Of a stretch of 35,225 nt of DNA, positions 4,671 to 10,411 are shown in pieces. The notes beneath the pieces are model-generated. The model had not been told where the DNA came from. It searched no databases and was given only the letters and a program-made list of their open reading frames with translations. Every line of letters starts with the position of its first letter. Position 1 is the stretch's first letter. The position numbers and the translations under genes are program-made. Source of the DNA: Flavobacteriales bacterium (GTDB taxonomy: Bacteria; Bacteroidota; Bacteroidia; JACJYZ01). The stretch is taken from assembly GCA_020435415.1 (NCBI GenBank), contig JAGQZQ010000016.1, positions 1 through 35,225 of the forward strand, given 5' to 3'.

Positions 4671-5171
4671 ATGACCGAGATTATAGATTATTACTACAGT
4701 GCCGTAAAACTTCAGGGAATCCTGAAAGTTGCATTCGGATCACTCACCGCCGTTATCCCGATTTTGTTGGTGATGTATTATTATAAATACCGATTCTATC
4801 AAGGGTTCATGATTGCACTTGTGGCACTTGGAACCCATCTGTTAATATCCGGCCGCGTGTCATATGAAGGTGCGGATAAAATGAATTCGGACATGCGCGA
4901 ATATTTCCAGACCGATGCAAATGGTTTTGCCACAGAAGCTACCGGGATGATCGAGCAAAACATCAACCATATTCAAAATCACCTTATCGTATTTGGTGTC
5001 CTTTTGTTGGCGGGTATCGCCCTTGTTGTATTGTTCAGAAAGGGGAGGTCACTGGTGTTCGGGCTGGGGGTTGGTTTGGTGCTGATGGGTCTTGCAGGTG
5101 TGATATTCGATTTGGTGGCGATCACGGATGCTACACGTTACCTGGACGCCATCCAGGCGTTAATGGAATAG
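4671..5171 (+). CDS. four-helix membrane protein, unknown
   Basis: This 166-residue protein starts at the ATG at 4671. It has four hydrophobic segments: about residues 18-36, 43-60, 104-122 and 128-150. A soluble stretch rich in acidic and amide residues lies between the second and third (SYEGADKMNSDMREYFQTDANG). The pattern predicts an inner-membrane protein with a periplasmic or cytoplasmic loop of about 40 residues. No catalytic motif or known family is recognised. A perfect TAnnTTTG element (TATGTTTG, 4644-4651) lies 19 bases before the start, but no convincing -33 element sits at the right distance. It lies between paaY and paaZ, yet nothing in it points to phenylacetate metabolism. Confidence 0.65.
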   Translation: MTEIIDYYYSAVKLQGILKVAFGSLTAVIPILLVMYYYKYRFYQGFMIALVALGTHLLISGRVSYEGADKMNSDMREYFQTDANGFATEATGMIEQNINHIQNHLIVFGVLLLAGIALVVLFRKGRSLVFGLGVGLVLMGLAGVIFDLVAITDATRYLDAIQALME

Positions 5172-5213: not shown

Positions 5214-5252
5214 TCAGAACAATATTTTGAATAAAACACATAATTCAGAACA
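5214..5252 (+). promoter_or_regulatory. direct repeat TCAGAACA at the paaZ transcription and translation starts
   Basis: TCAGAACA occurs at 5214-5221, immediately after the -7 element, and again at 5245-5252, touching the start codon. The copies are 31 bases apart, close to three helical turns. The second copy is part of the 13-mer TAATTCAGAACAT (5241-5253), which recurs inverted at 8200-8212 upstream of the E1 gene. The position is what one expects for a repressor operator, but no regulator is encoded nearby. Confidence 0.35.
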
Positions 5253-7297
5253 TGAAGCTCGGAAATTACATAAATGGCCAATGGATGCAAGGTGATGGGG
5301 AAGGAGTGGCACTTTTCAACGCAATCACCGGTGATGAGGTGGCCAGAGCCTCTGCCAATGGCCTGGATTTCGGATCTGTAACCAAGTATGCGCGGGAGGT
5401 TGGCGGGCCTCATCTTCGTAAAATGACCTTTCATGAACGTGGCCGTATGCTCAAAGCACTCGCCTTACATCTTCATGCGCGAAAAGACCAATTTTATGAA
5501 CTGAGCTATGCTACGGGAGCAACCAGGGCAGACAGTTGGATAGATATTGAAGGTGGCATCGGGAACCTCTTTGCATATTCAAGTTTGAGAAGGCAATTTC
5601 CTGATGAGGCATATTATGTAGATGGCGAAGCAATATCTCTCTCAAAAGGAGGAGGATTTATCGGTCACCACATCATGGTCCCGAAAGAAGGTGTGGCCAT
5701 CCATATCAATGCTTTCAATTTTCCGATCTGGGGAATGCTTGAAAAGATCGCTGTAAACCTTCTCGCAGGGGTGCCGGCCATTGTAAAACCCGCCACGGTC
5801 ACCAGCTTTCTGACGGAAGCCATGGTCAGAGAGATTGCCGCATCAGGGATACTTCCGGATGGGGCCTTACAACTGATTTGTGGTTCCGCGGGCGACCTGC
5901 TTGACCACGTCACAATGCAGGATGTGGTGACCTTCACCGGTTCGGCCAGTACCGGTTTGATGTTAAAAGGTCATCCGAGAATTCTGGCAGAATCTGTTCC
6001 TTTCAATATGGAGGCGGATAGTTTGAACTGTTCTGTTCTGGGAGATGACGTGAAACCCGGTGATGAAGAATTTGATCTATTTATAAAAGAAGTTCACAGG
6101 GAGATGACGGTAAAGTGTGGTCAGAAATGCACCGCCATTCGCCGCATCATTGTTCCGGAAAATTTGGTGGAAGAAGTGCAGATTGCTCTTGGCAGGCGCC
6201 TGGAGAAAACGGTTATCGGTGACCCCCAAACCGAAGGAGTGCGAATGGGTGCATTGGCAGGTAAAACACAACTGGGAGAAGTCAAAGAAAAGTTAAAAGA
6301 GTTGCTGGAAGGCAGCCGGATCGTCTTCGGAAATCCGGATCAGGTGGAGGTGCAGGGAGCTGATGCTACCAAAGGCGCTTTCATGTCACCGATCCTGTTG
6401 CTGAACGAAGATCCGTTTAAGAATACCCAGCCGCATCACGTGGAGGCATTCGGGCCGGTGAGTACCATCATTCCTTACAAAGATTTGTCAGAAGCCATAA
6501 CATTATCCAGAATGGGCAAAGGGTCATTGTGTTGTTCTTTGGCCACGGCCAGTGATGACATTGCCCGGGAATTTGTGCTTGGTACGGCAGCATTTCATGG
6601 CCGTATCCTTATTCTTAACAGGGATTGTGCGAAAGAAAGTACCGGTCACGGATCTCCCCTGCCTATGTTGGTGCATGGTGGCCCCGGAAGAGCTGGTGGC
6701 GGCGAAGAGATGGGTGGAATGCGTGGTGTCATGCACTATTTGCAGCGCACTGCCATTCAGGGTTCTCCGACTACCCTTACACAGGTTACCAGTGTCTACC
6801 AATACGGCGGCAGACAAACCGAAAAGGACGTACATGTTTTCAGAAAGCATTTTGAGGAACTCGAAATCGGAGAAACGGTTTTTACGCAAGGCAGGACTGT
6901 TACCGAGGCGGATATCGTGAACTTTTCAAATGTAAGCTGGGATCACTTTTACGCACATACCGATGCCACATCGCTGGATGGGACGATATTCGAACAACGC
7001 GTGGCACATGGTTACTTTATCTTATCGGCAGCAGCAGGTTTATTTGTAGATGGAAAGAAAGGGCCGGTATTGCTGAACTATGGTATAGATGAATGCAGAT
7101 TCACCAAACCTGTTTACGCTGGTATGACCATCTATGTGCGCTTAACAGTGAAGGAAAAGACAGCACAGGAGAAGAAGGATGAAGATGATGTAGCAAAGGG
7201 CATCGTTCGTTTTTTGGTGGATGTATATGATGAGACCGGGGAAACCGTGGCCCTGGCAACGATACTGACCATGGTGAAGAAAAAAGATCAATCCTGA
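5252..7297 (+). CDS. paaZ: PaaZ: oxepin-CoA hydrolase / 3-oxo-5,6-dehydrosuberyl-CoA semialdehyde dehydrogenase
   Basis: This 681-residue bifunctional enzyme has the same layout as E. coli PaaZ. Residues 1 to about 520 form an aldehyde dehydrogenase with the general-base glutamate at E254 (FNMEADS) and the catalytic cysteine at C293 (GQKCTAIRR). From about 530 a MaoC-like (R)-hydratase hot-dog domain follows, with D564 and H569 in WDHFYAHTD matching the hydratase pair. The hydratase opens the oxepin ring of oxepin-CoA. The dehydrogenase oxidises the resulting aldehyde with NADP before it can cyclise. It is a cytoplasmic enzyme of aerobic phenylacetyl-CoA breakdown. The stop overlaps the next gene's start in TGATG, so translation of the two is probably coupled. 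Confidence 0.93.
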   Translation: MKLGNYINGQWMQGDGEGVALFNAITGDEVARASANGLDFGSVTKYAREVGGPHLRKMTFHERGRMLKALALHLHARKDQFYELSYATGATRADSWIDIEGGIGNLFAYSSLRRQFPDEAYYVDGEAISLSKGGGFIGHHIMVPKEGVAIHINAFNFPIWGMLEKIAVNLLAGVPAIVKPATVTSFLTEAMVREIAASGILPDGALQLICGSAGDLLDHVTMQDVVTFTGSASTGLMLKGHPRILAESVPFNMEADSLNCSVLGDDVKPGDEEFDLFIKEVHREMTVKCGQKCTAIRRIIVPENLVEEVQIALGRRLEKTVIGDPQTEGVRMGALAGKTQLGEVKEKLKELLEGSRIVFGNPDQVEVQGADATKGAFMSPILLLNEDPFKNTQPHHVEAFGPVSTIIPYKDLSEAITLSRMGKGSLCCSLATASDDIAREFVLGTAAFHGRILILNRDCAKESTGHGSPLPMLVHGGPGRAGGGEEMGGMRGVMHYLQRTAIQGSPTTLTQVTSVYQYGGRQTEKDVHVFRKHFEELEIGETVFTQGRTVTEADIVNFSNVSWDHFYAHTDATSLDGTIFEQRVAHGYFILSAAAGLFVDGKKGPVLLNYGIDECRFTKPVYAGMTIYVRLTVKEKTAQEKKDEDDVAKGIVRFLVDVYDETGETVALATILTMVKKKDQS

Positions 7298-8088
7298 TGA
7301 CAGATTCCGGAATGGGAGAACAGGGTGGTGTGGAAATGACCATTGACTCGGGCATCGCCACCATCACCTTTTATCATCCTAAGAGTAATTCCCTGCCGGG
7401 GAAAGTATTGAAAGAGCTGGCGGCTACCATTGAGTCCGCCGGAACACAGGGTAACGTGCGCGTGATCGTGCTCACAAGCAGCGGTGAAAAAGCATTTTGT
7501 GCGGGTGCATCGTTTGATGAATTGTTATCCATTGCGGATGCGGATACCGGAAAGGATTTTTTCATGGGCTTTGCCAGGGTGATCAATGCAGCCAGGAAAT
7601 GTCCGCGGTTTATCATCGGACGTGTGCAGGGAAAGGCTGTAGGAGGTGGTGTTGGTATGGCCGCTGCTGTAGATTATTGTATGGCGGTTGATCAGGCTTC
7701 TGTCAAACTTAGTGAACTGGCTATCGGGATCGGTCCGTTTGTCGTTGGGCCTGCCGTTGAGCGAAAAATGGGATTGTCCGCATTCTCCGAACTAGCGATC
7801 AATGCCACAGAATGGAGAGATGCACAATGGGCCTACCAGAAAGGTTTATACACCCGCATCTTTTCCTCCGTGGGTGAACTCAATGACGCTGTTACCACCC
7901 TGGCAAAACGATTGTCCGATAGCAGTCCGGAAGCTATGAAACTCCTGAAACAGGCCATGTGGTCGGGTACGGAGAACTGGGACCAACTGCTTGAGTCACG
8001 CGCAGAGATGAGCGGTAAGTTGGTACTTTCCGATTTCACATCCAATGCCATCCGGCAGTTTAAGGAAGGAACCAAAACATCCGGTTGA
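7297..8088 (+). CDS. crotonase-fold enoyl-CoA hydratase/isomerase of the paa operon
   Basis: A 263-residue crotonase-superfamily protein. It has the oxyanion-hole segment AFCAGASFDE (A69/G70) and the GKAVGGG loop (116-118). Aligned by spacing to rat mitochondrial enoyl-CoA hydratase, the position of Glu144 is G120 (GGGVG), while Glu164 is kept as E140 (KLSELAIG). Loss of the first acid and retention of the second is seen in isomerases rather than hydratases. A role in isomerisation of the ring-epoxide or of a double bond (PaaG-like) is therefore more attractive than PaaF-like hydration. This is inference. The gene starts inside the paaZ stop codon. A second start choice is the ATG at residue 6 or 14. 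The chemistry should be treated as open. Confidence 0.8.
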   Translation: MTDSGMGEQGGVEMTIDSGIATITFYHPKSNSLPGKVLKELAATIESAGTQGNVRVIVLTSSGEKAFCAGASFDELLSIADADTGKDFFMGFARVINAARKCPRFIIGRVQGKAVGGGVGMAAAVDYCMAVDQASVKLSELAIGIGPFVVGPAVERKMGLSAFSELAINATEWRDAQWAYQKGLYTRIFSSVGELNDAVTTLAKRLSDSSPEAMKLLKQAMWSGTENWDQLLESRAEMSGKLVLSDFTSNAIRQFKEGTKTSG

Positions 8089-8199
8089 TCTGACGTTGCG
8101 CTTCCTTCGTGCCAACCGTCCAAATATTATAACTCAGTCGCCGGAATGTACCTGTTTGGGTATTCATACTATTCTTTTAAAAGTTTCATTTAAAGAATA

Positions 8200-8212
8200 A
8201 TGTTCTGAATTA
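8200..8212 (-). promoter_or_regulatory. 13-bp shared site, inverted relative to the paaZ copy
   Basis: Read on the minus strand this is TAATTCAGAACAT, identical to 5241-5253 at the paaZ start. It lies in the 217-base gap before the E1 gene, just upstream of the large palindrome. Presence in the control regions of two adjacent transcription units suggests one DNA-binding protein acts at both. Confidence 0.35.
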
Positions 8213-8217
8213 GATTA

Positions 8218-8274
8218 AAATCAATAACAAAGTACTGCATAATTCGTATATTGCAGTATATATGTTATTGATTT
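8218..8274. promoter_or_regulatory. 57-bp nested palindrome upstream of the E1 gene
   Basis: The outer arms AAATCAATAACA (8218-8229) and TGTTATTGATTT (8263-8274) are perfect 12-base inverted repeats. Inside them TACTGCA (8233-8239) and TGCAGTA (8252-8258) form a second perfect pair with nearly the same centre. The element ends about 30 bases before the preferred ATG and overlaps the alternative TTG start. This suggests an operator for a dimeric or tetrameric regulator, or a hairpin in the leader if it is transcribed. Confidence 0.55.
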
Positions 8275-8305
8275 GATCAAAGTGGCAGCACGCAGAAATA
8301 CAGGG

Positions 8306-10411
8306 ATGAACGGATCCGCAGGTGTAAGGCCTCCGGCAAAAGGCAGCAATGCCTCAGGGGTATCGGAAGAAATGTTGCTGAAGGCTTGGGAATTAATGGC
8401 CACCGCCCGGGCTATGTCTGCCGTTTTTGAGGAAAATGCAAGCGTGACGTCAAAGTACGTACACGCCACTTCTAAAGGGCATGAGGCGATACAACTTGCA
8501 CTTGGTCTGCAACTGAAGCCACAAGATTTTCTTTCTGCCTATTATCGTGATGATGCGGTGCTGCTAGGGATTGGCATGACCCCATATGAATTGATGCTTC
8601 AGCTTCTTGCCAAGCGGGATGATCCTTTCTCAGGGGGACGAACTTATTACAGTCATCCAAGTCTCAACAGGCCGGACATGCCTAAGATTCCCCATCAATC
8701 CTCTGCAACAGGCATGCAGGCGATTCCATCCACCGGGATTGCCATGGGCATTCAGTACAAAGAAAAAGAAGGTCTTGCCGAAGATCATGGTGGGGAGAAT
8801 CCGGTAGTGGTATGCTCACTCGGCGACGCTTCCATCACCGAAGGAGAAGTGGCAGAAGCTTTTCAGATGGCAGCATTGCATCAGTTCCCCATATTATATC
8901 TTGTTCAGGACAATGAATGGGACATTTCTGCCCACGCCAGGGAGACCAGGGCACAGGATGCCAGCGAATACATCAAAGGGTTCAAAGGAATTGAAAGTGT
9001 TAGTCTGGATGGTGCAGACTTCCAGACCTGCTATCTGACCTTGCAGAAGGTCATCCAAACGATACGTGAGGAGAGGAGACCGTTTCTGGTTCACGCCAAA
9101 GTGCCGCTCCTTAATCACCATACTTCCGGCGTGAGAATGGAATGGTACCGGGATGATCTTGCGGACCATAAGGAACGCGACCCCTTCCCGAGATTCAGAG
9201 CGCAGCTCGTAAATAATGGTTTAAATGAAGAAACCCTTCGTCAGATCGAAGGGCAGGTTGGTGAAAAGGTAAAGGCAGATTACGAGAAAGCATTGCAGGC
9301 AGAAGATCCCCGCCCGGAGGATCTGTTTCTCCACGATTTTGCACCTACTCCGGTCACGGAAGAAAAAGGACAGCGTGCACCGGCTGGCAAGGATAAAACC
9401 GTAATGGTGGATAGTGCCTTGTTTGCGATCCGTGAACTGATGGAGAAACATCCGGAATGCCTGCTATACGGGCAGGACGTGGGAAAACGTCTGGGAGGGG
9501 TTTTTCGTGAGGCAGCGACCCTGGCACAAAAATTTGGTAATAACCGGGTATTCAATACCCCGATTCAGGAAGCGTTTATTGTTGGAAGTACGGTGGGCAT
9601 GTCCGCGGTTGGACTAAAGCCCATTGTAGAAGTACAGTTTGCTGATTATATCTGGCCTGGACTCAATCAGCTTTTCACAGAGGTATCACGCAGTTATTAC
9701 CTTTCCAACGGCAAGTGGCCGGCGAGCATGGTCCTTCGAGTACCTATAGGCGCCTATGGAAGTGGGGGACCCTATCATTCATCGAGCGTTGAATCTGTGG
9801 TCCTGAATATCAAAGGTGTAAAAGTTGCATATCCATCCACCGGTGCTGACCTCAAAGGTTTGATGAAGTCAGCCTATCACGATCCGAACCCGGTGGTGAT
9901 CTTTGAACACAAGGGACTGTACTGGTCTAAAATAAAGGGTACGGAAGATGCCAGGACCATAGAACCGGATGAAGACTACATCATTCCTTTTGGTAAGGCA
10001 AGAACGGTGATTCAGGCCGATCAGGAACACATCTTCAATGGCAGCAGTATGGTGGTTGTTACGTATGGCATGGGTGTGTACTGGGCCAGGAACGCTGCAA
10101 AGGAATTTCCCGGACAAGTAGAAATACTGGACCTACGAACGTTGAATCCATGGGACAAAGAAGCAGTTTTTGCATCGGTCAGAAAACATGGTCGGTGCAT
10201 GGTGGTGACGGAGGAGACGGTACAAAACTCATTTGCACAAGCCATTGCCGGTCAGGTTCAGCTTGCATGTTTTGAAAACCTGGACGCCCCCATTCACATC
10301 ATTGGTTCGGAGAATCTACCGGCTATCCCACTGAATTCAACGCTGGAATCCACCATGCTTCCCTCGGCGGAAAAGGTAAAAAAAGCCATGTATCAGCTTA
10401 TAAATTATTAA
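8306..10411 (+). CDS. fused E1 alpha/beta thiamine-diphosphate 2-oxoacid dehydrogenase
   Basis: About 701 residues from the ATG at 8306. The frame also allows GTG at 8282 or TTG at 8273, but the latter lies inside the palindrome. The first half is an E1 alpha domain, with the thiamine-diphosphate motif running from GDASITEGE to VQDNEWDIS. The second half is an E1 beta domain, with NTPIQEAFIVGS, VEVQFADYIWPG and a C-terminal transketolase-type domain (EILDLRTLNPWD). Such E1 enzymes decarboxylate branched-chain or other 2-oxoacids and pass the acyl group to a lipoyl E2. No E2 or E3 gene is in the window, so it must use subunits encoded elsewhere. The substrate cannot be read from the sequence; proximity to paaZ makes an aromatic or branched oxoacid possible. 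Confidence 0.88.
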   Translation: MNGSAGVRPPAKGSNASGVSEEMLLKAWELMATARAMSAVFEENASVTSKYVHATSKGHEAIQLALGLQLKPQDFLSAYYRDDAVLLGIGMTPYELMLQLLAKRDDPFSGGRTYYSHPSLNRPDMPKIPHQSSATGMQAIPSTGIAMGIQYKEKEGLAEDHGGENPVVVCSLGDASITEGEVAEAFQMAALHQFPILYLVQDNEWDISAHARETRAQDASEYIKGFKGIESVSLDGADFQTCYLTLQKVIQTIREERRPFLVHAKVPLLNHHTSGVRMEWYRDDLADHKERDPFPRFRAQLVNNGLNEETLRQIEGQVGEKVKADYEKALQAEDPRPEDLFLHDFAPTPVTEEKGQRAPAGKDKTVMVDSALFAIRELMEKHPECLLYGQDVGKRLGGVFREAATLAQKFGNNRVFNTPIQEAFIVGSTVGMSAVGLKPIVEVQFADYIWPGLNQLFTEVSRSYYLSNGKWPASMVLRVPIGAYGSGGPYHSSSVESVVLNIKGVKVAYPSTGADLKGLMKSAYHDPNPVVIFEHKGLYWSKIKGTEDARTIEPDEDYIIPFGKARTVIQADQEHIFNGSSMVVVTYGMGVYWARNAAKEFPGQVEILDLRTLNPWDKEAVFASVRKHGRCMVVTEETVQNSFAQAIAGQVQLACFENLDAPIHIIGSENLPAIPLNSTLESTMLPSAEKVKKAMYQLINY

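Follow-up and report, generated by a model that had tools for sequence, protein, structure and literature searches.

A 57-base palindrome lies upstream of the gene for a fused 2-oxoacid dehydrogenase E1 in a Bacteroidota genome. Its center reads as an ordinary, putative promoter for E1 that is conserved in other genomes, with moderate support, and its arms are a lineage-specific addition. Most likely, the arms are either a translation-blocking hairpin in the messages of the neighboring operon or a selectively neutral product of a DNA copying accident. We tentatively advance a model, held at slightly less than even, in which the palindrome, as an inverted repeat specific to this lineage, overlies the E1 promoter and would hide the E1 start in RNA reading through from the phenylacetate (paa) genes. 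The locus offers a testable case of how a gene 3' of a catabolic operon stays under its own control. The phylum has no Shine-Dalgarno sites, and leader structure matters in it; the locus also has an uncommon TAnnTTGY box whose conservation before a single enzyme gene extends across orders. Viewed as a regulatory palindrome, it is in other respects unremarkable, and it is limited to one lineage.

Gene setting and geometry of the palindrome

The whole 35,225-nt stretch of DNA analyzed (the window) comes from contig C16 of G000, a draft Bacteroidota genome of 3.48 Mb. Here, within a Bacteroidota phenylacetate cluster, paaZ and an enoyl-CoA hydratase gene are followed by a 193-nt gap and then by the fused E1 (Table 1). 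Across the class, relatives of E1 were found in Flavobacteriales, Saprospiraceae, and other Bacteroidetes. Hydratase and E1 followed one another on the same strand in 22 of 109 E1 loci; in these 22, which represent many Bacteroidia, E1 was located directly 3' of the phenylacetate-cluster hydratase, sometimes across a gap of 11-25 nt. This adjacency suggests a functional link between the E1 dehydrogenase and phenylacetate breakdown. In one Saprospiraceae locus (L054), an unrelated strong hairpin (z -6.2) with TGTTG-type repeats was found between the hydratase and E1 genes. Upstream of paaZ in the window, a 166-aa reading frame (4671-5171) had no family match and no relative in the E1 loci.

The original prediction described nested arms of 12 and 7 perfect bases sharing nearly one center ahead of the fused E1 gene; this description was exact. 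The outer arms, AAATCAATAACA and TGTTATTGATTT, are complementary at 12 of 12 positions (100%) with a spacing of 33 nt, and the inner arms at 7 of 7. The two centers lie at 8246 and 8245.5, respectively, a half-base offset that leaves ungapped pairing in only 15 of 28 positions. Folded as DNA, the chosen palindrome segment reached -13.7 kcal/mol (z -6.4); as RNA, the palindrome reached -20.5 kcal/mol and the slightly longer 8213-8279 reached -24.7 kcal/mol, with a stem of 16 bp and one bulge. An Rfam model search of the palindrome returned no match at E<=1.

Shuffling the whole intergenic region is a fairer test of chance than the z of a chosen segment, and an equally stable 66-nt window appeared in 2 of 300 dinucleotide shuffles (about 1 in 150). 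Hence, the description of the palindrome as far beyond chance holds for this single gap, but its rarity is modest genome-wide, since 435 kb of this genome contained about 20 inverted repeats with perfect arms of at least 12 and loops of up to 50. Most of these were of the short-loop terminator type or were located in coding sequence, and those with long loops were few. The arms are rare genome-wide, though not unique as a class of repeat. A dispersed hairpin, TTCTTATGCG-TCATGCAATAG-N7-CTATTGCATGA-TTTGGG, was also recorded in the 435-kb sample (L104:3937-3975 and L116:9366-9404), and a related one, CAATGCAATAG...CTATTGCATTG, occurred at L108:11035-11065; the three may belong to one small family of repeats in this genome.

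The conserved core and the E1 start

We used 101 bases from the palindrome region to search 395 class genomes. One match was outstanding (E 1.3e-5) and another followed (E 7.8e-4), both directly 5' of E1 orthologues and both in one genus of another order, labeled f4. In all five f4 genomes examined, the alignment was ungapped over the core, and four of them also had the same core-to-start-codon distance as here; core and spacing are both observed directly. The hydratase gene was found just upstream on the same strand in three f4 loci. Outer-arm identity in f4 was near chance (5-7/12 for the left arm, 2-3/12 for the right), and the inner-arm positions, TTCTGAA or TTTTGAA on the left and TGCGGTA or TGCGGAA on the right, were not complementary. 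No unusual fold was detected in the f4 gaps between hydratase and E1 (z about 0, vs. -4.4 for the 193-nt gap here). Because the core is kept in f4 while the outer arms and the hairpin are absent, the arms are best regarded as the lineage-specific part. The original prediction took a lack of arms in orthologues as grounds for rejecting it, and the arms were indeed missing from all five genomes that share the core; the conserved feature is the central promoter-like element, which that prediction did not mention.

This homology also bears on a mobile origin, whereby the palindrome would be a remnant or a single MITE/REP-like copy bounded by 12-bp terminal repeats. Although its ends are inverted repeats and its GATTA/GATCA flanks bear a faint likeness to a target duplication, the genome holds no other copy. 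Furthermore, the would-be center of the element is homologous to the promoter DNA of the orthologues, in the same place and at the same distance, which nearly excludes such an origin and makes it very improbable.

Table 1. Features of the E1 locus, in positions of the window (f4, a genus of another order)
Feature	Position	Strand	Remarks
paaZ bifunctional protein	5252..7297	+	TIGR02278, E 7e-280
Enoyl-CoA hydratase (crotonase family), phenylacetate cluster	7297..8088	+	Co-directional neighbor upstream of E1
Weaker second inverted repeat, AT-rich, TATTCTTTTAA / TTTAAAGAATA	8170..8199	.	91% complementary; same gap
Left outer arm, AAATCAATAACA	8218..8229	.	Outward stem extension in RNA to ~8213, one bulge
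Left inner arm, TACTGCA	8233..8239	.	Direct reading of sequence
Conserved core, TAATTCGTATATTGC, read as putative E1 core promoter	8240..8254	+	14-15/15 identical in five f4 genomes
Putative -7 box, TATATTGC	8247..8254	+	TAnnTTGY, SM5-like; sigma-A-like variant (PMC9723704)
Right inner arm, TGCAGTA	8252..8258	.	Overlaps -7 box; direct reading
Predicted transcription start	8259	+	From -12..-5 spacing, T of -7 box at -12; leader 23 nt
Right outer arm, TGTTATTGATTT	8263..8274	.	Within E1 leader
Fused 2-oxoacid dehydrogenase E1 (alpha+beta)	8282..10411	+	GTG start (read from alignment), MAARRN...; Pfam E1_dh, Transket_pyr, Transketolase_C

The putative promoter activity of the core is centered on the -7 box, which fits TAnnTTGY and is identical in the five f4 genomes. 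The same TATATTGC box was found 5' of E1 in five Flavobacteriales (L062, L082, L083, L085, and L089). A de novo motif search of 184 E1 upstream regions recovered the -7 promoter element of Bacteroidota, and the window scored among the highest. When the window, f4, and L117 were excluded and the gap was rescored, the top two scores still fell in the palindrome, 7.4 (8235-8264) and 5.8 (8225-8254), relative to null values of 6.4 (95%) and 8.6 (99%). A short 12-nt model of the -7 element was not significant in the gap (3.6 vs. a null mean of 3.9), and these scores together place the support for a promoter at moderate. An alternative box, TATATATG at 8257-8264, scores 7.4. With the -12..-5 box spacing taken from PMC6847099 and PMC9723704, the predicted start site gives a leader whose length was matched (23 nt) in three f4 genomes computed, all among the four with equal spacing.

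Most E1 orthologues use the sigma-A form, TAnnTTTG. At 8247-8254, four of the six near-invariant bases of that form (T-12, A-11, T-8, T-7, T-6, and G-5) are present, and no exact TAnnTTTG was read in 8089-8281. TAnnTTTG is enriched in this genome (47 occurrences vs. 12 expected), and no general excess of TAnnTTGC was seen there. As a separate observation, TATATTGCAGTATA or its one-mismatch form occurred only 5' of E1 in ~0.8 Mb of E1 loci (the five Flavobacteriales loci listed above); this unusual promoter box has been retained by separate clades.

The alignments indicate that translation of E1 starts at GTG 8282 rather than at TTG 8273 or ATG 8306. The E1 start, GTGGCAGCA, aligns with ATGGCTGCA of the orthologues at equal spacing, GTG GCA GCA facing ATG GCT GCA, and the match in core-to-start spacing with the f4 orthologues leads to the same codon. 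GTG 8282 also has an A at -3, an initiation preference reported for Flavobacterium (PMC6847099). The palindrome had been said to decide the gene start; TTG 8273 does overlap the right arm and translation begins after the palindrome, but the choice of GTG 8282 draws on this other evidence.

Possible roles and origins of the arms

Under the read-through model, the -7 box TATATTGC in the center of the palindrome would set transcription of E1 to begin near 8259, inside the right half, which is the supported step. With a start there, the E1 mRNA itself would be without the left arm, bearing the right arm only, and its leader would be fairly open. RNA presumed to read through from paaZ and the hydratase gene would bear both arms, which are computed to form a stem of ~20 bp whose 3' side stops ~5 nt before GTG 8282. 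Translation of E1 from such paa read-through mRNA would then be damped, such that E1 output would track its own promoter. The folding energies themselves are direct results of computation: the cost of opening the start region was 19 kcal/mol in the read-through RNA vs. 5.5-7.6 kcal/mol in the E1 transcript, and the difference, 11.7 here, was smaller in the armless orthologues (0.2-6.9 in f4 and about 0 in Flavobacteriales). In F. johnsoniae, structure at the start region lowers translation (PMC6847099).

The palindrome had also been judged not to be a terminator, and we agree; a search between hydratase and E1 found no G+C-rich short-loop stem with a T-run, which counts in favor of read-through. 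Against blocking, GTG 8282 is predicted to be mostly paired in both transcripts, and other species have E1 immediately within the operon with no comparable arrangement. We consider it quite doubtful that a Bacteroidota chromosomal metabolic gene ignores read-through from an upstream operon by means of a palindrome and, together with this, has a TAnnTTGY-class promoter kept across orders.

The arms may instead be a neutral quasi-palindrome, formed when the sequence on one side of the promoter was copied to the opposite side by a short template switch or inverted duplication, with the promoter alone under selection. We regard this as possible though not likely. Replication template switching creates hairpins in one step (PMC8794818), and both the near-common center of the two arm pairs, which fits a single event, and the absence of the arms from orthologues that keep the core are consistent with it. 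However, both arms differ from the f4 orthologues, so neither can be assigned as the source, perfect 12-bp arms would need a recent origin, and no close relative displays the state before the event.

The original prediction pointed to candidate regulators of the TetR, GntR, or Lrp type. Repression of E1 by a dimeric regulator of such a type, bound to the dyad over the promoter, appears rather unlikely from sequence. Dyads that overlap promoters are in the typical operator position, the inner half-sites here are 19 bp apart, and E1 adjoins a catabolic cluster of an often-regulated kind. On the other hand, a genome search for the arm sequence returned no second copy, the outer arms having no further site at up to three mismatches, and this lack of a second site in the genome makes an operator less well supported. 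The inner dyad was not in excess genome-wide (15 vs. 11 in the control), and orthologues do not conserve the dyad. A single dimer would also not usually bind 12-bp arms separated by 33 bp. A regulon sharing the 14-bp dyad TATAYTGCARTATA was considered separately, the dyad occurring in 36 of 395 class genomes relative to five matches for a reversed control pattern. It was rejected because the genes at these sites were unrelated and the sites often fell within genes.

Comparison with known systems

The insertion sequences IS10 and IS50 carry inverted repeats that span the promoter and block read-through, as only transcripts from outside form a hairpin over the start region. To our knowledge, a promoter-spanning palindrome directed against read-through is found only in insertion sequences. 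The E1 palindrome would resemble these repeats in spanning a promoter, the predicted start at 8259 lying between its arms. Unlike in IS10 and IS50, the gene is a chromosomal metabolic one, there is no transposase, and the effect is a predicted one.

The hairpins attributed to template switching (PMC8794818) share with this palindrome their paired arms, single center, and lineage-specific occurrence, though here there is no ancestral sequence for comparison. Relative to sigma-A (sigma-ABfr) promoters with TAnnTTTG (PMC6847099), the putative E1 promoter has the same position, the same TA..TT frame, and AT-rich sequence upstream, whereas G and C occupy -6 and -5 in place of T and G. The closest box is that of the TAnnTTGY (SM5) promoters of Flavobacterium psychrophilum, which have been mapped and, at one operon, mutated (PMC9723704). 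Those promoters serve LPS, dipeptidase, or gliding genes rather than a catabolic dehydrogenase gene, and here a large palindrome encloses the box and the start is a predicted one; what the two have in common is the TATATTGC box, a Bacteroidota host, and the leader length, a predicted 23 nt here compared with a median of 24 there.
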